From assembly GCF_026241205.1 (NCBI RefSeq), contig NZ_JAPFQM010000006.1, positions 372,001 to 436,000 of the forward strand: DNA of 64,000 nt, written 5' to 3'. The DNA is from Thermomicrobium sp. 4228-Ro. GTDB lineage: Bacteria; Chloroflexota; Chloroflexia; Thermomicrobiales; Thermomicrobiaceae. The notes below the pieces were generated by a model. That model saw nothing but the letters and a program-made list of their open reading frames with translations. It was not told the origin of the DNA and made no database searches. The translations under genes and the position numbers were made by a program. Position 1 is the stretch's first letter. Every line of letters begins with the position of its first letter. Positions 5,156-35,376 of the stretch are shown here, piece by piece.

Positions 5156-6193
5156 TCAGACCGTCCGGGTGACCTTGGCGAGGCCACGTGGCCGATCCGG
5201 GTCGAGTCCACGGGCGCGAGCCAGCGCGAGTGCGAGGAGTTGCCCCGGTACGACAGCGACGAGCGGTGAGAGCCACTCGGGGACATCGGGCGGCAAAGGC
5301 AAGGGGAGATCAGCCCGGGCGAGGAGCGTGGGAGCATCGCTCACGATCGCCAGCGCTGCCGCACGGGTAGCCAAGTCCTCGGTGAGCGCTGCGAGGTCGG
5401 GAAAGACCGCACCGGAAGGAGCGACCAGGACGATCGGGAAGCCGGGCTCGACGAGTGCGATCGGGCCGTGGCGGAAGTCGGCCGAGGAATACGGCTGCGC
5501 CAGCACGAGACACGTCTCCTGGAGTTTCAGCGCGACCTCGAACGCCGTCGCGTAGTTGAAGCCGCGGCCGATGACGGCGAGGAGGCGCGCGTCCCGGAAG
5601 GGACCGAGCTGCTGGGCGAGATCCCGGTTGCGCTCGAGCGTCCTCTGGAGCGCCGCAGGCACCTCGGCGAGCTGGCTCAGGCGCGTGCGGTCGCCAGCGA
5701 GCGCGGTGCTGAGGAGGGCGAGCACGAAGAGCTGTGCCGTGTAGGTCTTGGTCGCGGCGATGGCCCGTTCCTCCCCGGCCAAGAGCGGAAGGACGAGCTC
5801 GGCAGCCTGGGCGAGCGGCGAGGCGGGATCATTGGTGACGGCAAGGGTGAGTGCACCCTGGCGACGCCCTTCCTCGATGACCGCGACGATATCGGGCGAC
5901 CGGCCGCTCTGGCTGATCGCGAGAACGAGGCTTCCGGCGAGCGACGGGGGCCGCCGGTACAGCGTGAACAGGGAAGGGGTCGCCAGGGCGACCGGCAGCC
6001 GGTTGTCCGCCCCGAAGAGGTACTGGGCATACCGCGCGGCATTGTCGGAACTGCCGCGCGCAGCGATCACCACGTAGCGCGGTGCAGCAGCCTGGATGCG
6101 CTTCGCCACCTCCTCGACGCGTGGGAATCCCTCGGCGAGGAGGCGCTCGAGGACAGCCGGCTGTTCGGCGATCTCACCTGCGAGTATCGACAT
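5156..6193 (-). CDS. SIS-domain sugar isomerase/deaminase, probable glucosamine-6-phosphate deaminase of the NagB-II type
   Basis: The 345-residue protein has two SIS domains like the isomerase half of GlmS and lacks the glutaminase half. Motifs seen are IAARGSSDNAARYAQYL (about 50-66), LAISQSGRSPDIV (phosphosugar-binding Ser/Thr loop), EERAIAATKTYTAQL, GRGFNYATAFEVALKLQET and the DFRHGPIALVEPG loop. Stand-alone proteins of this class convert glucosamine-6-phosphate to fructose-6-phosphate and ammonia. Placed right before nagA, it would complete entry into glycolysis. The start at 6193 is preferred because GGGAG lies about 7 bases upstream; a start at 6214 is possible. It overlaps the preceding oxidoreductase gene by 20 bases. 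An AgaS-like galactosamine role cannot be excluded. Confidence 0.85.
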   Translation of the reverse strand: MSILAGEIAEQPAVLERLLAEGFPRVEEVAKRIQAAAPRYVVIAARGSSDNAARYAQYLFGADNRLPVALATPSLFTLYRRPPSLAGSLVLAISQSGRSPDIVAVIEEGRRQGALTLAVTNDPASPLAQAAELVLPLLAGEERAIAATKTYTAQLFVLALLSTALAGDRTRLSQLAEVPAALQRTLERNRDLAQQLGPFRDARLLAVIGRGFNYATAFEVALKLQETCLVLAQPYSSADFRHGPIALVEPGFPIVLVAPSGAVFPDLAALTEDLATRAAALAIVSDAPTLLARADLPLPLPPDVPEWLSPLVAVVPGQLLALALARARGLDPDRPRGLAKVTRTV

Positions 6194-9688: not shown

Positions 9689-10750
9689 TCACCCCCTCTC
9701 CAACGAAAGACGCTCGTCGTTGCCCGGTGTCGGCACTTCCATGCTCGACCGCAGCCCGTCGGACCCGGTCCGCTCCTGTCGGACGATGTGGCAGGCGACC
9801 GCACGCTGTCCGTCCACTGCGTCGAGTAGGGGCCGCTCCACGTCGCAGAGCCCAGCGACGAAGTGGAGGCAACGCGGGTGAAACGGGCATCCGGCAGGAA
9901 GGTTGGCCAAGCTGGGAATATCCAGGCTCCGCAGGAGCAGCTTCGCCTTCTGGCGGGTGAGCTCGGGATCCGGTTCGGGAAGGGCCGCGAGGAGCGCCTG
10001 GGTATAGGGGTGGAGCGGATGACCGATCACGCTCGGCGTCGGGCCGAGCTCGACGACTCGGCCAAGGTAGAGGACGGCGATCCGGCCCTGCCAGGCGAAG
10101 TACTTGGCCATCGCCAGGTCGTGCGTAATGAAGAGGAACGCAACTCCCAGCTCCTCCCGGAGACGGCGCAGCGTATGGAGAAGACTCACCCGGATCGAGA
10201 CATCGACCATCGAGGTGGCTTCGTCGGCGACGATCAGCTCGGGCCCGACGGTCAGTGCACGGGCGATCGAGACGCGCTGACGCTGTCCGCCGCTCAGCTG
10301 ATGCGGGTACTTGGGGAGGAACTGTTCGGGGGGAACGAGATCGACGAGCTCGAGCAAGCGCGCAGCCCGCTCGACGGCATCGGCCCGGTTCCGAGCGATG
10401 CCATGATGGAGCAGCGGCGCAACCAATGTATCCGCGACCGTGCGGATCGGGTTCAGGGAAGCGTACGGGTCCTGGTGGACGATCTGCACGGCGCGGCGGA
10501 AACTGCGGAATGCGTTCGCCGGGAGGCGCCAGACATCCTGTCCGCGATACCGGACGCTCCCGGATGTCGGCCGGAGGAGACCAGCAGCGACCTTGCCGAG
10601 CGTCGTCTTTCCAGAACCGCTCTCACCGACCAGACACAGCACATCACCTGGTTCCAGATGGAACGAGACCTCCTCGACCGCACGGAGGAGCGTCCGGCCG
10701 CGCCGGAAGTGGACGGAAACGCCGTGCAGCTCCAGGAGCGGCTCAGGCAT
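9689..10750 (-). CDS. oligopeptide-type ABC transporter ATP-binding protein (OppF/DppF-like)
   Basis: The 353-residue ATPase carries Walker A GESGSGKTTLG (about 42-52), Q-loop region VHQDPYASLNP, signature LSGGQRQRVSIARAL, Walker B LIVADEATSMVD and the switch FITHDLAMAKY. The Opp/Dpp C-terminal domain has the Cys motif CPFHPRC plus further cysteines of the family. The start at 10750 overlaps the upstream ATPase stop by 8 bases, indicating coupling. It should pair with the neighbouring OppD-like ATPase to energise the transporter whose permeases are damaged upstream. Confidence 0.92.
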   Translation of the reverse strand: MPEPLLELHGVSVHFRRGRTLLRAVEEVSFHLEPGDVLCLVGESGSGKTTLGKVAAGLLRPTSGSVRYRGQDVWRLPANAFRSFRRAVQIVHQDPYASLNPIRTVADTLVAPLLHHGIARNRADAVERAARLLELVDLVPPEQFLPKYPHQLSGGQRQRVSIARALTVGPELIVADEATSMVDVSIRVSLLHTLRRLREELGVAFLFITHDLAMAKYFAWQGRIAVLYLGRVVELGPTPSVIGHPLHPYTQALLAALPEPDPELTRQKAKLLLRSLDIPSLANLPAGCPFHPRCLHFVAGLCDVERPLLDAVDGQRAVACHIVRQERTGSDGLRSSMEVPTPGNDERLSLERG

Positions 10751-26064: not shown

Positions 26065-26769
26065 ATGGCTGAGCAGCTCGTTCACCCGACACCGATGCGT
26101 GGCGTGCCGCAGCCGAGGCGCGAGGACGTGCTCGGACAACCACGCCTCACCGTTCTCGGCCATCCTGTGGTGACGGCACTCTTGACGGTCGCCCGGGACG
26201 AGCGGACGCCGCCGGCCGAGTTCGAGCGCGTCCTCCACGAGCTGACGCGCTTTTTGCTCTATGAAGCACTGCGTGCCGAACCGCTGGAAACGTTCCGCGT
26301 CCCCTCGCCGACCGGTGAGGAAGCGGATGGCGGCGCGATCCGCGCCGGGCTGGCGGTACTAGCGATCCTGCGGGCAGGGCTCGGGATGCTCGCACCGGTG
26401 CGGCAACTCATCCCGGCAGCACCGATCTATCTCGTGGGTGCGCGGCGTGACGAGGAGACACTGCGCTCGACCATCTACTACAAGAAGCTCCCCGGCCGCT
26501 TCGACGTGCTGCGCCACGTGGTGATCGTCGACCCGATGCTGGCGACCGGCGGCTCGGCAGTGGCGACAGTGCAACTCCTGCGGCAGACCTACGACGGGCC
26601 GATCTCGTTCCTCGGCATCATCGGTGCACCGTACGGGGTCCAGCACTTGCTCGATGCCGACCCGGACGTCCGCATCTACCTGGCAGCGCTCGACGAGCGG
26701 CTGGACGACCGTGGCTTCATCGTGCCGGGGCTGGGTGATGCTGGCGACCGGCTCTTCGGTACGCACTGA
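26065..26769 (+). CDS. upp: uracil phosphoribosyltransferase
   Basis: The enzyme makes UMP from uracil and PRPP (pyrimidine salvage, cytoplasm). The 234-residue protein has the PRPP-binding loop VVIVDPMLATGGSAVATV, the family blocks AILRAGLGML and STIYYKKLP, and a uracil-binding tail FIVPGLGDAGDRLFGTH. It is about 20 residues longer than usual at the N-terminus. ATG 26065 follows GGGGG at 6 bases; the longer open frame upstream is not conserved in character. It stands alone, with the subtilase gene starting 40 bases downstream. Confidence 0.96.
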   Translation: MAEQLVHPTPMRGVPQPRREDVLGQPRLTVLGHPVVTALLTVARDERTPPAEFERVLHELTRFLLYEALRAEPLETFRVPSPTGEEADGGAIRAGLAVLAILRAGLGMLAPVRQLIPAAPIYLVGARRDEETLRSTIYYKKLPGRFDVLRHVVIVDPMLATGGSAVATVQLLRQTYDGPISFLGIIGAPYGVQHLLDADPDVRIYLAALDERLDDRGFIVPGLGDAGDRLFGTH

Positions 26770-26809
26770 GAGCGGCGACGCGTTGCCTTCGCTCGGGAGC
26801 ACGAAGCGC

Positions 26810-28888
26810 GTGATACGAAACGGCCAGCGGGAACGAGCCAGGCGAACGCCGGTGGCCAGGCTCCTGGTGTGGGTCGTGCTTCTCCTCGTTGCAGCGAGCC
26901 CGCTCGGCAACCCGGGGCCGACCAGGGCAGAACCCGCTGCACGCGCCGCACCGTCCGCACTCGACTGGGCAGTCGCGATCGACCCGCTCCGATGTCCGGT
27001 CGAGCGCGCCAGTGGACTGTATGCCGCGTGCCTGGCGCGCGTACCGGCCGACCAGGAGCCGATCGCACCGGACGGCACGTGGTGGCGCCTGCGCTTTGCC
27101 GACCGAGCTCGCGCGGCCGAGTGGGTGGCACGGCTGCTCCAGTCACCCGGCGTGCGGTACCTCGAGCCGGCTGTCCAGTTGACCTACCAGTGGATGCCGA
27201 GCGAACCGCTCGTCGCGCAGCAGAGCTGGCTCACGGTCAGCGGTTTCCCACGTGCCTGGGACGACACGATCGGCCGCGCGGACGTCGTGGTGGCGGTGAT
27301 CGATTCCGGCGTCGCAGCGTCCCATCCCGACCTGGCTGGGAAGCTGCTTCCGGGATACGACTACCTGCACCGTGACGATGATCCGGACGACGAGGCCGGG
27401 CACGGGACGGCGGTGGCGGGGATCATCGCTGCGGCCGTGAACGGTCAGGGTATCGCCGGTGGCGCACCGGGCGTGCGCCTCCTGCCGCTCAAGGTCGGCG
27501 ACCAGATCGGCGCCAGCTCCTTCCTGATCGCCGAGGCCGTGTACGGTGCGATGGAACGCGGAGCGCAGGTCATCAACCTGAGCCTCGGTGCCGATACACC
27601 GAGCGCTGCGCTCGAGCACGCGATCGAGCAAGCATACGAGCAGGGGATCGTCGTGGTCGCAGCAGCCGGCAACTCGCCGGACGCGGTCACCTTCCCGGCC
27701 AGCTACCCGGAGGTGATCGCGGTCGGAGGCGCGACGGCGGACGGCAAGCGGCTGGCGAGCTTCACGTCGCGCTTGACGCGCGTGGACCTCGTCGCACCGG
27801 CCGAGAACGTGCTGACGACCAGCTGGGACGGCCAGGAACCCGGCTGGCAGCCACGCACCGGCACCTCGTTCGCCGCACCGATCGTCAGTGCGGCCGCAGC
27901 CCTGGTCCGCTCGGTCGCGCCGGACAGCAGCGTCGAGTGGGTGCGCCAGGCGCTGCGCGAAACCGCCCAGCCGCTCGACCCGCCCGGTCAACCGGGCGCT
28001 GGGAGCGGGCTGCTCTCGGCGAGCGGAGCGGTCGAGCGCGCGGTGGTGCGCCGCTTCGCCCAGGCCTGGCAACGGGCCGACCTCCCAGTGGCAGCCGGGC
28101 AGGCGACCCGCTCGTGGGTGTGGGGCCCCAGCGCCTTCGCGCTCGGCCGCGAGCCGTACCAGGAGACGCGCGCCGGAACGCGCGCGGTCGCCTACTTCGA
28201 CAAGGCGCGGCTCGAGCTCACCGACCCTGACCGACCGCCGAGCGATCCCTGGGCGGTGACGTCGGGACTCCTGGCGAAAGAACTCAGCACCGGCCTCATG
28301 CAGGTCGGCGACGCGACCTTCGTGCGCCTCCAGCCGGCGACCGTGCCGGTCGCCGGTGATCCCGACGACCCGACGGGACCGACCTACGCCACCCTGGCGA
28401 CGGTACTGGCCGCACCGCCGCTCGACGAGGGCGAGCCAGTCGTGCAGACGATCGACCGGGCAGGACGGATCGGGAGCGAGGAGCGCCTGGCCCAGTACGG
28501 CGTGCGCGCCGGTCCGCTCGTACCGGAAACCGGGCACCGGATCGCCTCGGTGTTCTGGGACTTCCTCCAACGCCGGGACACCGTCTATGCGGACGGAGCG
28601 TTCCAGACCGACCAGTTGTTCTCGCCACTCTTCGCCGTCACCGGCTTCCCGATCACCGAGGCGTACTGGACGCGCGCCAAGGTCGGCGGAGTCGAGCGAG
28701 ACGTCCTCGTGCAGTGCTTCGAGCGTCGTTGCCTCACCTACACGCCGGACAACCCACCCGGCTGGCGCGTCGAGTTCGGCAACGTCGGACAGCACTACTA
28801 TCGCTGGCGGTACGGCAGGCTTCCCGACCGGCCACCAGCCAGCGACCCCGCGGCGATGGCGCCGGTGGACGGTAGCGGACACCACTGA
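26810..28888 (+). CDS. secreted subtilisin-like serine protease (S8) with C-terminal FERAR-type module
   Basis: A 692-residue exported protease. GTG 26810 has GGGAG 10 bases upstream and gives a signal peptide (VARLLVWVVLLLVAASPL). A short propeptide-like region precedes the catalytic domain: Asp165 in VAVIDSGVAASHPDL, His198 in GHGTAVAGI, the oxyanion Asn288 in AAAGNSP and Ser353 in GTSFAAPIVS. The last 130 residues form a separate domain (PETGHRIASVFWDF, GFPITEAYW, VQCFERRC, VEFGNVGQHYY) that resembles two copies in the deacetylase at 57.8-59.2 kb. It probably degrades external protein. The downstream hairpin may end its transcript. Confidence 0.93.
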   Translation: MIRNGQRERARRTPVARLLVWVVLLLVAASPLGNPGPTRAEPAARAAPSALDWAVAIDPLRCPVERASGLYAACLARVPADQEPIAPDGTWWRLRFADRARAAEWVARLLQSPGVRYLEPAVQLTYQWMPSEPLVAQQSWLTVSGFPRAWDDTIGRADVVVAVIDSGVAASHPDLAGKLLPGYDYLHRDDDPDDEAGHGTAVAGIIAAAVNGQGIAGGAPGVRLLPLKVGDQIGASSFLIAEAVYGAMERGAQVINLSLGADTPSAALEHAIEQAYEQGIVVVAAAGNSPDAVTFPASYPEVIAVGGATADGKRLASFTSRLTRVDLVAPAENVLTTSWDGQEPGWQPRTGTSFAAPIVSAAAALVRSVAPDSSVEWVRQALRETAQPLDPPGQPGAGSGLLSASGAVERAVVRRFAQAWQRADLPVAAGQATRSWVWGPSAFALGREPYQETRAGTRAVAYFDKARLELTDPDRPPSDPWAVTSGLLAKELSTGLMQVGDATFVRLQPATVPVAGDPDDPTGPTYATLATVLAAPPLDEGEPVVQTIDRAGRIGSEERLAQYGVRAGPLVPETGHRIASVFWDFLQRRDTVYADGAFQTDQLFSPLFAVTGFPITEAYWTRAKVGGVERDVLVQCFERRCLTYTPDNPPGWRVEFGNVGQHYYRWRYGRLPDRPPASDPAAMAPVDGSGHH

Positions 28889-30441: not shown

Positions 30442-31077
30442 ATGGCGCGTATCCTGCTCGTCCCGGACGACGCGCTCGGCTGGCAGGACCTGGCTGCCCA
30501 GCTGGCCCGCTGCCCGGGAATCACGGCCGTCCAGCTGGCCGGCAACCCTGCCACCGCCGCGCAGCTCGGCGTCACCTGGCAGCCCGACCTGGTCCTCCTC
30601 GGGGCCGGTCTCCTGCGCGAGCAGCTCGACCCAGGGCTGAGAGGGCTGGTCCAGCGGGCTCCGAGCGTGCTCCTGGCCCACGCACTTCCCGCCCAGCTCC
30701 TCGCGGCGCTGCTCGACGCGGGGTTGCCCCTGCGTGGCGTCCTCACCTGGGTCGATCTCGACCGGGCAGCGGTGCCCGCGGTGGCCGCGCTCCTGACGCA
30801 GAGCCCGCTCCCGGTCGCCGGGCCGACAGCGGCTGCCCAGCTGGCCGCGCTGTGGCGGGAGCAGGTGGGGCGTCCGCGGCTCAGTCCGGTGGAGCAGCGG
30901 CTCCTGCCGCTCCTGGCCGAGTGGGACCTCACCTACGCAGCGATCGCTGCCCGGATGGGAGTGACACCGGCGACGGTCAAGGCGCGGGTGCGGCGGCTCG
31001 CCCTCGAGCTCGGTGTCCCCGCGGGACGGGGTCCAGTGGTCGAGGCAGCCCGCCAGCGCGGCTTGCTCCCACCCTGA
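30442..31077 (+). CDS. LuxR-type regulator with degenerate receiver-like N-terminus
   Basis: A 211-residue protein. Residues 1-120 have the alternating beta/alpha pattern of a response-regulator receiver (ILLVPDDALGW, PDLVLLGAG, LLAHALPAQ) but lack a convincing phosphoacceptor pocket. Residues 148-211 form a LuxR helix-turn-helix (LSPVEQRLLPLLAEWDLTYAAIAARMGVTPATVKARVRRL, here described in blocks). It lies immediately before the cysteine-rich protein locus in the same orientation, 122 bases ahead, and is the obvious candidate regulator for it. Control of that locus is inference. Confidence 0.75.
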   Translation: MARILLVPDDALGWQDLAAQLARCPGITAVQLAGNPATAAQLGVTWQPDLVLLGAGLLREQLDPGLRGLVQRAPSVLLAHALPAQLLAALLDAGLPLRGVLTWVDLDRAAVPAVAALLTQSPLPVAGPTAAAQLAALWREQVGRPRLSPVEQRLLPLLAEWDLTYAAIAARMGVTPATVKARVRRLALELGVPAGRGPVVEAARQRGLLPP

Positions 31078-31199
31078 GCGGGCCGGGCCGACGCGGCACG
31101 CGCCGCCGGACGACAGCAGTGTCGTCCAAAGGAGACTGGTCGCTGCACCCGACCGCTGGCGACACTCCCGGTGCGGGAACCGGACACCGCGAAGGAGGT

Positions 31200-32216
31200 G
31201 TGCATCTGCAGTGGATACTGGCCTCCGACGGAGCCTGCGGGCGCTGCCGCGCCATCGCCGAGCGGGTCGTGGCGTTGGGCGGTGGACGGCTCGCAGCGCG
31301 GAGCCTGCGCGACCCAGCGGTCGCTGCCTGGCGCGAGCGGGCACTGGGGCCGGAGGCGCCCTGGGAGCCGGTGCTGCTCGCGGTCGCTGGTGACCGCCTA
31401 CAGGCGTACACCGGGCGGCGGCTCGTGCTCCAGCTGGTGCGGCTGCTCGGGGTGCGGCGGGGGCTGGCGCTGGCGAGCGAACTGCGGGCGCTCGCGCCGC
31501 CGGCCGGAGCGGGTCCGGCGCTCACCCGGCGGCGGGTACTCGGGCGCTTGGCTGGACTCGGCACCGCGCTCGGGCTCCTGGCGAGCGGCAAGCTGGCGGT
31601 GCCGGGCGGGGCGCACGCCCGGGGGCAGGACGGTGGGCGGCCCTGGTGGGCGGTGGAGCCGATAAAGACGAGCGTGCTCGATCCGGCAGCCAGGGAGAAA
31701 CTCCTGGCGGAGTTCGTGGCCGGGCCTGACCTTCCGGCGGTGCTCGGTGCGGCAGAGCTTGCCGCGGTGCAGGCGGCCGAGCACCGGCTGGCCGACGGGC
31801 GGACGCTGTGGGCGGCAGCTCTGGCACTGCCCGATGACCAGGTACTGGCCTACTACGTGGATGACGCTGGCCAGAAGATCGTGCTGCACTATCGTATAGT
31901 GACGCACGGTGTTCGGCCCCAGCTCGCGCCCGTGACTCCGACCGGCGGCGTACAGCGTGCGTCAACACTCCCCGAAAGAGAGCTCCTGGCTCAACGAACG
32001 TGTTCTCCTCCTCTCATTCCTTGTTCATGCTGCTGCGGCAATCTCGATCTCTTCGAGTTGCTTACGTGTTGCGGCTTGGGGTGCTATGGGATCTGCAGGT
32101 CACGCTGGTGGATCGCCTGTGCTGCGTGTATTCTCGTTCTATGCCCCGCATGCCTCTGGCGCGCGTGCCGAGCTGGCTGGCCCTGCACCTGTTGCTGTGC
32201 GGAGCCGGGAACATGA
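31200..32216 (+). CDS. cysteine-rich C-terminal protein 1: DCC-like redox domain, Tat-like segment, 18-Cys core
   Basis: About 338 residues. Residues 4-95 resemble a DCC/thioredoxin-like domain with DGACGRC (the DGxCxxC motif). Around 100-138 there is a twin-arginine-like TRRRVLGRLAGLG plus hydrophobic stretch. A middle domain (WWAVEPIKTSV to DDAGQKIVLHYR) follows, and the last 72 residues hold 18 cysteines, including CSCCC, LTCCGLGC, CAAC, CPAC and PCTCCC. The spacing matches the core of the protein at 32.8-33.2 kb. The start is uncertain: a perfect GAAGGAGG ends one base before the GTG at 31200, so the CTG at 31206 may be used. Function unknown; a disulfide-rich secreted peptide precursor or metal-binding protein is possible. 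Confidence 0.7.
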   Translation: MHLQWILASDGACGRCRAIAERVVALGGGRLAARSLRDPAVAAWRERALGPEAPWEPVLLAVAGDRLQAYTGRRLVLQLVRLLGVRRGLALASELRALAPPAGAGPALTRRRVLGRLAGLGTALGLLASGKLAVPGGAHARGQDGGRPWWAVEPIKTSVLDPAAREKLLAEFVAGPDLPAVLGAAELAAVQAAEHRLADGRTLWAAALALPDDQVLAYYVDDAGQKIVLHYRIVTHGVRPQLAPVTPTGGVQRASTLPERELLAQRTCSPPLIPCSCCCGNLDLFELLTCCGLGCYGICRSRWWIACAACILVLCPACLWRACRAGWPCTCCCAEPGT

Positions 32217-32286
32217 GGACGATATCGGACCAGGTATGGTCGTTTCAGAATGTCCCACACACGTACTGAGAAGGAGGTCGCCCACC

Positions 32287-32622
32287 ATGGCATGGGGGAC
32301 GATAACGTGGGTGCTCTGGTTGCTTTTGCTCTGTAACTTCATCGTGCTGTTCGGGATTGAGACACTCACTGGTCACCGACCAGGTCGCCCGGAACCCAGC
32401 AGCTGGCGTAGTCGGCTCGTCAGCGCGCTCAGTTGCATGCTGCTGATCGCAGGGGTCGCCTACGGTGTCCGCCGTGGCCCGCAGTCATGGATGCACGACC
32501 CCGTCATGACGCTGCTCTTCGCGGGCTTGGTGCTGGTCTCCTTCTGGCCCTGGCTCACGCTCCTGCGGGGTCGTCACCGCAACCGACGTATGGACGGCGC
32601 GATGACTTCGAGGGGTACTTGA
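32287..32622 (+). CDS. small three-helix membrane protein A of the cysteine-rich locus
   Basis: An 111-residue protein with an excellent ribosome site (AAGGAGG, 8 bases before ATG). Three hydrophobic segments are visible: ITWVLWLLLLCNFIVLFGIE, LVSALSCMLLIAGVAYG and VMTLLFAGLVLVSFWPWLTLL. The VRRGP motif follows helix 2 and a basic tail (RGRHRNRR) ends the protein. The same plan recurs in proteins at 33.3, 33.7 and 34.5 kb. An immunity or export partner for the cysteine-rich proteins is a guess from alternation of the genes. Confidence 0.65.
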   Translation: MAWGTITWVLWLLLLCNFIVLFGIETLTGHRPGRPEPSSWRSRLVSALSCMLLIAGVAYGVRRGPQSWMHDPVMTLLFAGLVLVSFWPWLTLLRGRHRNRRMDGAMTSRGT

Positions 32623-32795
32623 ACAGGTTACCGACGGGCTCCGAGAGCAGCGGCCGGAGCGGTGCCTATTCGTCGGAGCCCAGAGCAATGAGCAGCGTGC
32701 CGAACGACACTCCGTGACATGGCCGTACAGTTCGCCAACGCGAGCGAGAGCGATGAGACACGGGCAGACACGAGTCACGCACAGAAGTAACCACT

Positions 32796-33197
32796 GTGGA
32801 GGCCCTGGCTGGGGTGGCGGGAGCGGACGAGGTGGTGGCCGCGTACCGGGACGATGCCGGGCGGGTGGCAGCGTTCCGGTACCGGCTCGACGGGGAAACC
32901 GCAGTGCTGCTGGCAGCCAGCGAGGGTGGGCAGGTGACCTGGCCGGTGGTCGCCGGTGGCGCGTTCAGCCCGGCGGGTTGTCCACCGGGGTCTTGGCCCT
33001 GCAGCGAGCGCCGCTGCTGTCAGGTCAATCTGCGTAGGGCATATGACTGTTGCTCGCAATGGTGTCAGGCTGCGTGCACCTTCCTCGGTAGACTCGCGTG
33101 CGCGACCTGCCTGGCCATCGCCTGCCCGGCGTGTCTGATCCGCGCCTGCGTCTGGTGGTGCGACTGTTGCTGGCAAGATCCGCCGTGGGGACCGTGA
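32796..33197 (+). CDS. cysteine-rich C-terminal protein 2 (short paralogue, 16-Cys core)
   Basis: A 133-residue protein from GTG 32796; an in-frame stop lies 40 bases upstream, so it cannot be much longer. The first 60 residues (AYRDDAGRVAAFRYRL) match the middle domain of the first protein (YVDDAGQKIVLHYRI). The last 72 residues carry 16 cysteines with the same spacing: PCSERRCC, YDCCSQWC, ACATC, ACPACLIRAC and WWCDCCW. It lacks the redox and Tat-like parts. The ribosome site is poor, so it could be coupled, weakly expressed or a truncated copy. Function unknown. Confidence 0.62.
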   Translation: MEALAGVAGADEVVAAYRDDAGRVAAFRYRLDGETAVLLAASEGGQVTWPVVAGGAFSPAGCPPGSWPCSERRCCQVNLRRAYDCCSQWCQAACTFLGRLACATCLAIACPACLIRACVWWCDCCWQDPPWGP

Positions 33198-33259
33198 GGG
33201 AGGCGCGGCGCTCGGCTGGGCTCCTGCAGATGCGACGCGTTCGTTCGGAGAGGTGTCCG

Positions 33260-33573
33260 GTGCTCGCCGCGTTCGTGCTCGGCATGACGCTCACCCTGAT
33301 CGGAATCGTGATCCGCCTGCTCACGGCGGTCCGGCACCGCCGCGTCTGGGACATCGTGTACTGGAGCATCATGGTCGTCTGGACGGGTTGGATTCTCTGG
33401 GTCAGTCTCCGCAGAGAGGAGACACTCTTTACCATCCTCTTACCGGGATTACTGCCCTGGGCAGAGGCGACGCTCGTGACGCTCTTTTCATGGTCGCGCT
33501 CGCCTACCTCGTCAGCGGTCTCAAGCAAGCCCGGGACAGGCGCGCGAAGGAAGCAGCGGACAACGCACGCTGA
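33260..33573 (+). pseudogene. small membrane protein B of the cysteine-rich locus, one-base frameshift
   Basis: Starts at GTG 33260 with GGAGAGG upstream. The first part (VLGMTLTLIGIVIRLLTA, then VWDIVYWSIMVVWTGWILWV and SLRREE) matches the plan of the other small membrane proteins. At the T-run 33485-33488 the frame is lost. The other frame continues FMVALAYLVSGLKQARDRRAKEA and stops at 33573. A fifth T restores about 104 residues (TLFFMVALAYL). It is likely a homopolymer error, otherwise a pseudogene. Confidence 0.6.
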
Positions 33574-33745
33574 CGGGCGTGCTCGCGAAGAGGGATAGTC
33601 GTGTTCACGGCGTTGGGTGTTTGTCTGTCTCTTGCCCGGGCGGCCGGTCCTGGACGACGTGTTGTGCTGAGCCGGGAAGGTGAAGGAGGGCCGGCATGCT
33701 GGTTCGGCTCCGCCCGCTGCGCTGCTGAGCACGGGAGGTCCACTC

Positions 33746-34174
33746 ATGGACTGGGCACGCATTTTCTGGATCCTCTGGCTGGCTCTGCTGCTCTACGCGG
33801 TGCCGATCGCCGTCATCGAGCTGATACGTGGACGACGACCCTGAGAGTCAGGGCCGAGCCGCTGGTACCGCCGCGTGATCGGCGGTGTCGTCAGTGTGCT
33901 CGGTCTCGGCCTGCTCGTCTCCAGCCTGCGCACCAGTTCCCAACCGTCCATGGCGGACATCGTGTACTGGACGTTCCTGCTGACCTGCTTCGGTTTCTGG
34001 GTTGCAGTCCGAAGGGAACCGACACTCCTCCCAGAAGAACCCGACTGGCTGGAGGCACTGGTCTCGGCATACTGGTTCGTCGGTGGACTCGCCAGCGTCA
34101 TCTGGGCGATCAAGAAGGCGAGAGAAAGGCGTACCGATGAAGCGTGCGTGAACGAGCACGCGAACACGCCATGA
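33746..34174 (+). pseudogene. small membrane protein C of the cysteine-rich locus, with in-frame TGA
   Basis: ATG 33746 follows GGGAGG. It reads MDWARIFWILWLALLLYAV and IELIRGRRP, then TGA at 33842-33844. The same frame goes on ESGPSRWYRRVIGGVVSVLG, then MADIVYWTFLLTCFGFWVAV, RREPTLLPEEPDW, a further helix and a basic tail (AIKKARERRTDE). Protein A has G at the stop position (HRPGRPEPSSW), so GGA to TGA is the simplest change. The whole would be 142 residues. Whether it is a nonsense mutation, two separate peptides or an error cannot be told from the sequence. Confidence 0.55.
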
Positions 34175-34327
34175 AGTCTCGGCACTGCGCGGGGAGCAGG
34201 ATGACGCGACTGACAGACCCAGCGGGAAAAGGGGACAGAGGTGAAGGCGGCACGGAACAGGCGAACGGCGGGCCGGTGGCCGAGCGAAGCGGGATAGGGC
34301 ATGGCGGGCTGGCAGCGGTCGATCGGG

Positions 34328-34471
34328 GTAGGGCATCGGACTGTTGCACGGCCTGCTGCGGACTTCCGGACACAGAGGTCGGCTCGGGTGTGCACCGTGC
34401 CGGGAAAGCCCCTCTCCTCGTTCGGTCGACGGCCGTGCTGCCGCACCTGCTGCTGGTACGAGCCACCGTGA
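34328..34471 (+). pseudogene. decayed third copy of the cysteine-rich core
   Basis: A 144-base stretch begins with GTAGGGCAT..GACTGTTGC, as does the core of protein 2 (33034 on), and ends with TGCTGCTGG....CCACCGTGAG, like that gene's end. One frame gives ASDCCTACC at the start; a different frame gives RPCCRTCCWYEPP and a stop. The copy is about 20 bases shorter, frameshifted and without a clear start. It sits just before membrane protein D, repeating the cysteine-gene/membrane-gene alternation. Confidence 0.45.
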
Positions 34472-34508
34472 GTGTCGCACGCAGACTGGACGAGAGGTGG
34501 GTCGACGC

Positions 34509-34856
34509 ATGGCTTGGGACAGCTGGTACCCGCTCTTCTCGGTGATCGCCTACTTCGGCAGCTTGTCGATCTTGATCGCAGTTCATGTTTTCTGGATCGT
34601 CCGGCGCTTTCGGTCATTCCGCGCGCTCGACTGGGCCTCTGAGCTGCTCGTCACCTGGTCGATCGCGGTAGCCATCTGGCGCGGGATCCGCCGGGGACCG
34701 GTCTGGGATACCGACTTGCCGGGGAGTCCAGTCTGGCTGCGCGGCCTCATCGCTCTGGTCGCCGTGATCGTGTCCATTCTCGGGACCTGGTGGCTCATCC
34801 GGAAGGCGAACCGGCTGGAGCAGCCGGAGAACCAGGCGCGATCCGCGCTGTCATGA
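34509..34856 (+). CDS. small three-helix membrane protein D of the cysteine-rich locus
   Basis: A 115-residue intact protein. Helices: LFSVIAYFGSLSILIAVHVFW, LLVTWSIAVAIW and GLIALVAVIVSILGTWWL. It has the recurring RRGP motif (GIRRGPVWD) after helix 2 and ends with a basic, polar tail (IRKANRLEQPEN). GAGAGGTGG lies about 9 bases before the ATG. Together with A, B and C it suggests a local family made by duplication. Confidence 0.65.
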   Translation: MAWDSWYPLFSVIAYFGSLSILIAVHVFWIVRRFRSFRALDWASELLVTWSIAVAIWRGIRRGPVWDTDLPGSPVWLRGLIALVAVIVSILGTWWLIRKANRLEQPENQARSALS

Positions 34857-34875
34857 CGGGCTGTCTCTCGTTTCG

Positions 34876-34889
34876 GGCCGTATACGGCC
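34876..34889. repeat. perfect 14-base palindrome
   Basis: GGCCGTATACGGCC reads the same on both strands, 20 bases past the end of membrane protein D. It could be an operator or part of a hairpin; nothing else supports a role. Confidence 0.3.
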
Positions 34890-35112
34890 GTGCCAGCGAT
34901 GACGGAACGGACACGACGTGGCGACGCACCCGCTGTCGCTGTGCACTGCCATTCGCCTGTCGCAACGCCTCGGTCACGCGCCTGGGAGACTGCCATGCGG
35001 TACGATACGGGTGCAGGGGCGAATCCACCAGCACGTTCGACAGGCCGGTATCGGTGACTCCCCGTCTGCACTGACACAGGGGCGATCCTGCGTGGGGAGG
35101 GAGGTGACGGCG

Positions 35113-35376
35113 ATGGACTGCTCGGTGTTCCTGCCGCTGCTCCTGCTGGTGCTCGTCGCGATCCGGCTGGCGACGCTGCGCCGCAGCTGGTCGCTCGGCC
35201 AGAGTCTGGTCGGTGTAGCCGCCGGGGCATTCCTGTCCGGCGCTCTCGCTGTCCTCGCTGCGGGCGGCAGTCCCGCAGCCTGGAGGGGCGGGCTGCTGCT
35301 GGCGCTGCTGGGATTCCTCGTCGGTGCGCTCGCCGTGCTGGCCGCGACCGCCTGGCAACGGCGCGCGTCGCGGTAA
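35113..35376 (+). CDS. small hydrophobic membrane protein, unknown
   Basis: An 87-residue protein with hydrophobic segments VFLPLLLLVLVAIRLA, LVGVAAGAFLSGALAVLAAG and GLLLALLGFLVGALAVLAAT and an Arg-rich tail. A GGGAGGGAGG site precedes the ATG. It lacks the RRxP motif of the small membrane proteins upstream, so it may not belong to that family. It ends 9 bases from the convergent thiO gene. Confidence 0.55.
   Translation: MDCSVFLPLLLLVLVAIRLATLRRSWSLGQSLVGVAAGAFLSGALAVLAAGGSPAAWRGGLLLALLGFLVGALAVLAATAWQRRASR

Follow-up and report, generated by a model that had tools for sequence, protein, structure and literature searches.

A Thermomicrobium locus with exchangeable cysteine-rich cores, arranged like a polymorphic toxin system

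Gene array and cysteine-rich cores

The window (the whole 64-kb stretch of DNA that was analysed) belongs to a genome of 3.07 Mb whose large contigs measure 2.05 and 0.91 Mb; DNA near the locus shares 82% identity with the megaplasmid (0.92 Mb) of Thermomicrobium roseum DSM 5159. The locus forms an array of ~30.4-35.4 kb (about 30442-35376), larger than the region 31200-33197 covered by an earlier note on this DNA, with the order regulator, protein 1, m1, protein 2, m2, a decayed third-core stretch running into m3, m4 and m5. The window and T. roseum share an S8 peptidase, an MFS transporter and the regulator on one side of the array and thiO and sir2 on the other; m5 adjoins thiO in both. Except for the regulator, the T. 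roseum DSM 5159 genes of the locus carry only the annotation 'hypothetical protein'. The features of the array are as follows.

30442..31077, + strand: regulator with a C-terminal HTH of the sigma4/response-regulator type (Sigma70_r4_2 E=1e-5, just under the cut-off)
31200..32216, + strand (stop included; 31200-32213 coding, 338 aa): protein 1, composed of N-module, Tat-like segment, middle domain and core A
31200..31520, + strand: N-module, a predicted thioredoxin-like DGxCxxC domain, residues 1-107
31521..31619, + strand: internal Tat-like segment TRRRVLGRLAGLGTALGLL, residues 108-140 (TIGR01409)
31998..32213, + strand: core A, 72 residues (267-338) with 18 cysteines
32287..32622, + strand: m1, small membrane protein with three predicted TM segments and a strong SD, candidate immunity protein for core A
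32796..33197, + strand (32796-33194 coding, 133 aa): protein 2, a 61-residue middle-domain end followed by core B
33260..33598, + strand: m2, small membrane protein behind core B; in G015 and T. roseum, a homologue follows a core B or what is left of one
33616..33952, + strand: decayed cassette C, of which the core tail and the start of the membrane gene are left, with DNA identity of 88% to the cassette expressed in G018 and 90% to G015
33875..34174, + strand: m3, membrane protein whose start matches the membrane gene of cassette C and whose end is 74% identical to the G018 protein behind core B
34509..34856, + strand: m4, small membrane protein present in six arrays of the genus
35113..35376, + strand: m5, small membrane protein at the array end, a conserved boundary, ~93% identical to TRD_RS12290

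The two proteins with matching cysteine-packed C-terminal cores described in the earlier note (18 and 16 cysteines) are present where it placed them. Core B occupies residues 62-133 of protein 2, and its 16 cysteines in 72 residues all pair with a core A cysteine upon alignment (16/16); judged by sequence, the two cores are homologous. Across six frames of the 64-kb window, cores A and B are the only stop-free 72-codon stretches with at least 12 cysteines. The recurring order of cysteines also extends to relatives, where the spacing is kept: the alignment of eight cores, taken from four genomes, has 16 invariant columns, of which 13 are cysteine. The suggestion that the core belongs to no described family likewise stood, as Pfam matched no family in proteins 1 and 2 and an NCBIfam search of both proteins returned a borderline Tat signal in protein 1 and nothing else; the core gave no Pfam or NCBIfam match to metallothionein or any other named cysteine-rich family. 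A comparison of protein 1 with solved structures, by sequence, gave no meaningful match, and the structure prediction of the core reached a pLDDT of 52, a model too poor for use.

Signs of constraint were sought in the ratio of nonsynonymous to synonymous change. The dN/dS is 0.12-0.16 for core B among three strains, 0.11 for core C and 0.25 for the N-module with the Tat segment, and cores B and C are under purifying selection as real, constrained proteins. Several membrane genes gave values of 0.3-1.1, which are compatible with diversifying immunity genes and with decay alike; m4 compared to G018 is near 1.

Protein 1, the orthologue of TRD_RS12315 in T. roseum, is preceded by a strong SD, GAAGGAGGT, that is common to T. 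roseum. It may start at CTG 31206 and not at GTG 31200, because the spacing from GAAGGAGGT and the T. roseum ATG align there. A strong GAAGGAGGT ribosome site also precedes m1. The earlier note had correctly read the fusion of the protein 1 core to a DGxCxxC domain and a twin-arginine-like segment, and the retention in protein 2 of part of the middle domain, namely its last 61 residues, ahead of the core. The N-module, Tat segment and SD are all absent from protein 2, which is therefore probably silent as it stands. We regard this orphan as probably a silent replacement cassette, and core B was encountered solely in orphan form. The upstream regulator had been taken for a LuxR-type protein, which does not fit its sigma4/HTH-type end; it is not clearly LuxR, with GerE reached only at E=0.12. 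Its orthologue TRD_RS13975 is 80% identical and is annotated as 'response regulator transcription factor' in T. roseum.

A membrane gene lies behind every core and mostly travels with that core. A homologue of m1 with 79% identity stands behind core A in G018 as well, and core-B-like tails lie directly ahead of m4 in T. roseum, G014, G016 and the chromosomal copy. The pairing of core and membrane gene is imperfect, as the protein behind core B in G018 shows only 33% identity to m2. On the basis of its two differently matching ends, m3 looks like a fusion of the membrane genes of two cassettes. A second, degenerate array is located on the largest contig of the same genome (L004, contig C1, 5300-7850, minus strand), with a regulator, a frameshifted precursor without the N-module, a third core (H), a membrane gene, a core-B tail remnant and an m4 homologue.

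Cassette switching between related genomes

The regulator, the N-module and the flanks are common to related genomes and the cores differ. Comparison of the array with T. roseum, G015 and G018 located two positions at which the sequence switches.

31590..31640, + strand: junction 1, straight after the Tat segment (G015); the G015 DNA match stops at 31598 and resumes at 31637, ~2.5 kb away
31811..31843, + strand: junction 2, within the middle domain (T. roseum, G018); the DNA matches stop at 31813 (G018) and 31843 (T. roseum)

Up to residue 214, protein 1 agrees with its T. roseum orthologue at 172/212 positions (81% identity), compared to 42/114 (37%) beyond it (Fisher p about 2e-15). Beyond junction 2, the middle-domain ends of T. 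roseum and G018 correspond instead to the beginning of protein 2 (from 32794). The G015 protein has an N-module 84% identical over 131 codons and, after the Tat segment, different sequence ending in another cysteine-rich tail; an ABC ATPase and an ABC-2 permease come next. The exchange with G018 is reciprocal in placement: the window's core A tail and m1 (32121-32589) recur there as an 88% identical remnant in second position, and cassette C, the one expressed in G018, is the 88% identical decayed stretch found here (33616-33952). These alignments show that the locus is modular, with switches at two junctions, and that core and membrane gene move as a single block; we infer recombination as the cause. 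The core A remnant of G018 carries a piece resembling the start of the G015-type ABC ATPase, which we read as a deletion scar.

At silent sites, m1 and m4 diverge between the window and G018 by 0.20 and 0.17, respectively, compared to 0.63 for flanking thiO and 0.59 for sir2. The low values of m1 and m4 relative to these flanks suggest recent exchange; core B, at 0.885, lacks this signal.

Some precursors are broken. A nonsense codon interrupts the one in G015 (L020, near 3366), and core and middle domain lie in different frames in G014 (L019, near 9600) and G009 (L063, near 5842-5908). Programmed frameshifting was considered for G014 and G009 and set aside, since core and middle domain share one frame in the window, T. 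roseum and G018, and decay or assembly error is simpler; we read all three broken precursors as decay or assembly errors.

The N-module and its tails in other bacteria

The N-module is predicted to adopt a thioredoxin-like fold, with an AlphaFold pLDDT of about 90 over residues 1-100 and best Foldseek matches to thioredoxin-like proteins at middling scores (E about 0.003, Z about 6). The first cysteine of its CxxC is invariant and the second nearly so. It resembles the DCC1-like thiol-disulfide oxidoreductases (PF04134) in its DxxC start and predicted thioredoxin-like fold but differs from them in being the first domain of a precursor. PF04134 did not match the window's N-module and matched 5/13 N-module relatives weakly, all below the Pfam gathering cut-off (best E=0.0005). 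The Tat-like segment scores 16.5 bits with TIGR01409 against a cut-off of 16.7; its twin arginine is invariant in eight relatives, and one relative (L074) exceeds the cut-off with 17.3 bits. Protein 1 is probably exported.

Searches within and beyond the genus gave convincing matches to the core family in the genus only. Weak core matches in G001, G005, G012, G130, G242 and G347 outside the genus and in G019 and G016:C12 inside it were judged to be chance: those inspected were other frames of ordinary genes, and the rest were too weak. L060/L061 are chance matches to long unrelated proteins. A scan of genome contigs with the core and a search of phage records gave no match.

The N-module is more widespread, occurring in 13/400 genomes of the phylum (alignment A2), in 14/158 genomes of the class (alignment A3), and in Plesiocystis pacifica, a Rubrobacter plasmid and Streptomyces plasmids. 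What it is joined to at the C-terminus varies and is in most cases cysteine-rich. In two phyla, the N-module precedes a fulvocin C-related bacteriocin domain (NF033852), with E=8e-31 in G367 and E=3e-29 on a Streptomyces goshikiensis plasmid. Fulvocin C itself comes from a myxobacterium. Other N-module precursors are followed by membrane proteins of ~100 aa or by an ABC pair. Homologous-looking pairs of ABC-2 permease and ATPase stand behind precursors in three genera (L020 924-2505; L107; L072 6126-7875, reverse), and such a pair is a candidate export or immunity pump. The myxobacterial protein from P. pacifica SIR-1 (L104) has yet another cysteine-rich tail. Tails that are not cysteine-rich were seen in L066 (about 9725-9874, minus strand), L067 and L102, one of them carrying the zinc-metalloprotease motif HELGHGAGF. 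G225 contains six N-module loci, and six paralogues with different tails (L107-L112) occur in Chloroflexi bacterium AL-N1 (G436), which also encodes a separate halocin C8 domain above its cut-off, without an N-module (L124).

The window's protein and the fulvocin C-related sister proteins of G367 and the Streptomyces plasmids are alike in an N-module and Tat-like segment ahead of a cysteine-rich C-terminus; the window core differs from NF033852 in having far more cysteines at different spacing. At the 35-bit cut-off, NF033852 matched neither proteins 1 and 2, including middle domain and core, nor anything in their own genome, and hit sister proteins only. In halocin C8 and the Gram-positive C8-like proteins (TIGR04449, TIGR04450, NF040679), one gene encodes a Tat signal, an N-terminal part and a cysteine-rich C-terminal peptide, an arrangement that protein 1 resembles. 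The candidate immunity protein at our locus is encoded by a separate membrane gene, unlike that of halocin C8. The halocin C8-type models gave no match to the window proteins and none above cut-off in G000, and weak, sub-threshold matches to sister tails. By these family models, the locus is a member of neither the fulvocin C nor the halocin C8 family. Our literature search found no report of such bacteriocins in Thermomicrobium or Chloroflexota.

Interpretation as a polymorphic, bacteriocin-like toxin locus

In polymorphic toxins, the C-terminal tail and its partner gene are replaced in one crossover (PMC3482391), and a hallmark is the presence, behind the full-length toxin, of orphan toxin cassettes accompanied by immunity genes (PMC3482391, PMC4287609), as in MafB, whose orphan C-terminal cassettes lie downstream, each with an immunity gene (PMC4287609). 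Our locus resembles those of CDI CdiA, Rhs and Neisseria MafB in the conserved delivery part and variable C-terminus of one full-length protein, as found among related strains (T. roseum, G015). It also has leaderless downstream orphan C-termini, each followed by a small gene, switches at a shared region, and C-termini that form part of a full-length protein in one strain and stand as orphans in a second; protein 2, the remnants and the A/C swap with G018 represent such standalone cassettes interchangeable with the expressed one. In contrast to the enzymes of CDI/Rhs/Maf-type loci, the tails here are cysteine-rich peptides of ~70 residues; the delivery part, thioredoxin-like with a Tat-like segment and about 27 kDa, and the membrane-protein nature of the candidate immunity proteins also differ. 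No CDI, Rhs or Maf domain was found at the locus.

We consider it likely that the locus is a polymorphic, bacteriocin-like toxin locus with swappable cysteine-rich cores and membrane-gene partners. Among the options offered in the earlier note, a bacteriocin-like secreted peptide is the best supported, because the thioredoxin-like N-module leads a fulvocin C-related domain in other bacteria; a metal-binding or purely redox role gained no positive support. The orphan nature of protein 2, the core-linked membrane proteins and the array of swapped modules were all missed in that note. Several points speak against our reading: no known bacteriocin model matches the core, the Tat score lies under the cut-off, and some N-module partners are cysteine-poor or protease-like. 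The broken precursors of G014, G015 and G009, the 33% identity of the G018 membrane protein to m2 and the solely orphan occurrence of core B are further points against it.

Under the toxin reading, we infer expression, export, disulfides, processing, killing and immunity as follows. One expressed precursor would combine a conserved delivery part with a replaceable cysteine-rich C-terminal core. Recombination in the common middle domain or just past the Tat segment would swap core and membrane gene together, and related strains would therefore make different cores from one site. Because the Tat-like segment comes after the N-module, the N-module would stay cytoplasmic, where it may form or hold the disulfides of the tail in cis before export. 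Tat transports folded proteins, and would here move the already folded C-terminal part outward. A protease would then release a hydrophobic, cysteine-rich peptide that may target the envelope of close relatives lacking the matching membrane protein, and the adjoining small membrane protein would most likely shield the producer. In the window (26624-28888), in T. roseum (L118 2630-4681) and on the Rubrobacter plasmid (L119 1525-2922), the precursor is preceded at a distance of a few genes by an S8 serine peptidase, which was not seen beside L062; that it might be the maturation protease is a guess.

A broader proposal, which we regard as an even call, is that these proteins represent a new class in which a thioredoxin-like and Tat leader folds and exports interchangeable disulfide-rich warheads, switched in by recombination from a silent archive of cores and membrane-immunity genes. 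The leader family also carries tails of fulvocin C type, ABC-paired tails and protease-like ones across Chloroflexota, Actinomycetota and a myxobacterium.

That close strains diversify and exchange cassettes would also be explained by a variable self-recognition or surface-display protein whose tail is varied for kin discrimination or phage escape, without killing. We consider this unlikely, as the fulvocin C-related linkage, the paired membrane genes and the ABC pairs suit toxin and immunity better. Slightly less likely is a cysteine-rich metal-binding or redox surface protein, metallothionein-like or an electron carrier, with copies varying by duplication: it would suit the very high cysteine content and the thioredoxin-like module in one protein, but Pfam and NCBIfam gave no family match for the cores, and swapping with a membrane gene and the N-module on fulvocin C-related domains would be left unexplained. 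A decaying genomic island without present function would account for the frameshifts, stops and remnants of several arrays and the m4 dN/dS near 1 compared to G018; however, protein 1 is intact, as is its T. roseum orthologue, the SD is conserved, and the dN/dS values of 0.25 for the N-module and 0.11-0.16 for the cores make this improbable. Least probable is a ribosomal peptide whose cysteines a maturase converts to thioethers or other links: the layout of leader and cysteine-rich core would suit it, but the leader here is a folded domain with an export segment and not a short RiPP leader, and the T. roseum locus has no annotated maturase gene in the ~18 kb to each side.

In our assessment, the locus is real and unusual; its layout resembles that of a polymorphic toxin system whose warheads are of the bacteriocin type, and it probably works as one. 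Large toxins (CDI, Rhs, Maf) are well known to switch cassettes, and small, cysteine-rich, bacteriocin-like peptides in extreme thermophiles appear to follow the same genetic logic here. The arrangement raises the idea that a built-in thioredoxin-like domain may fold a disulfide-rich warhead ahead of Tat export. The delivery module recurs in three phyla, and the N-module offers a sequence handle for bacteriocin candidates that match no family.
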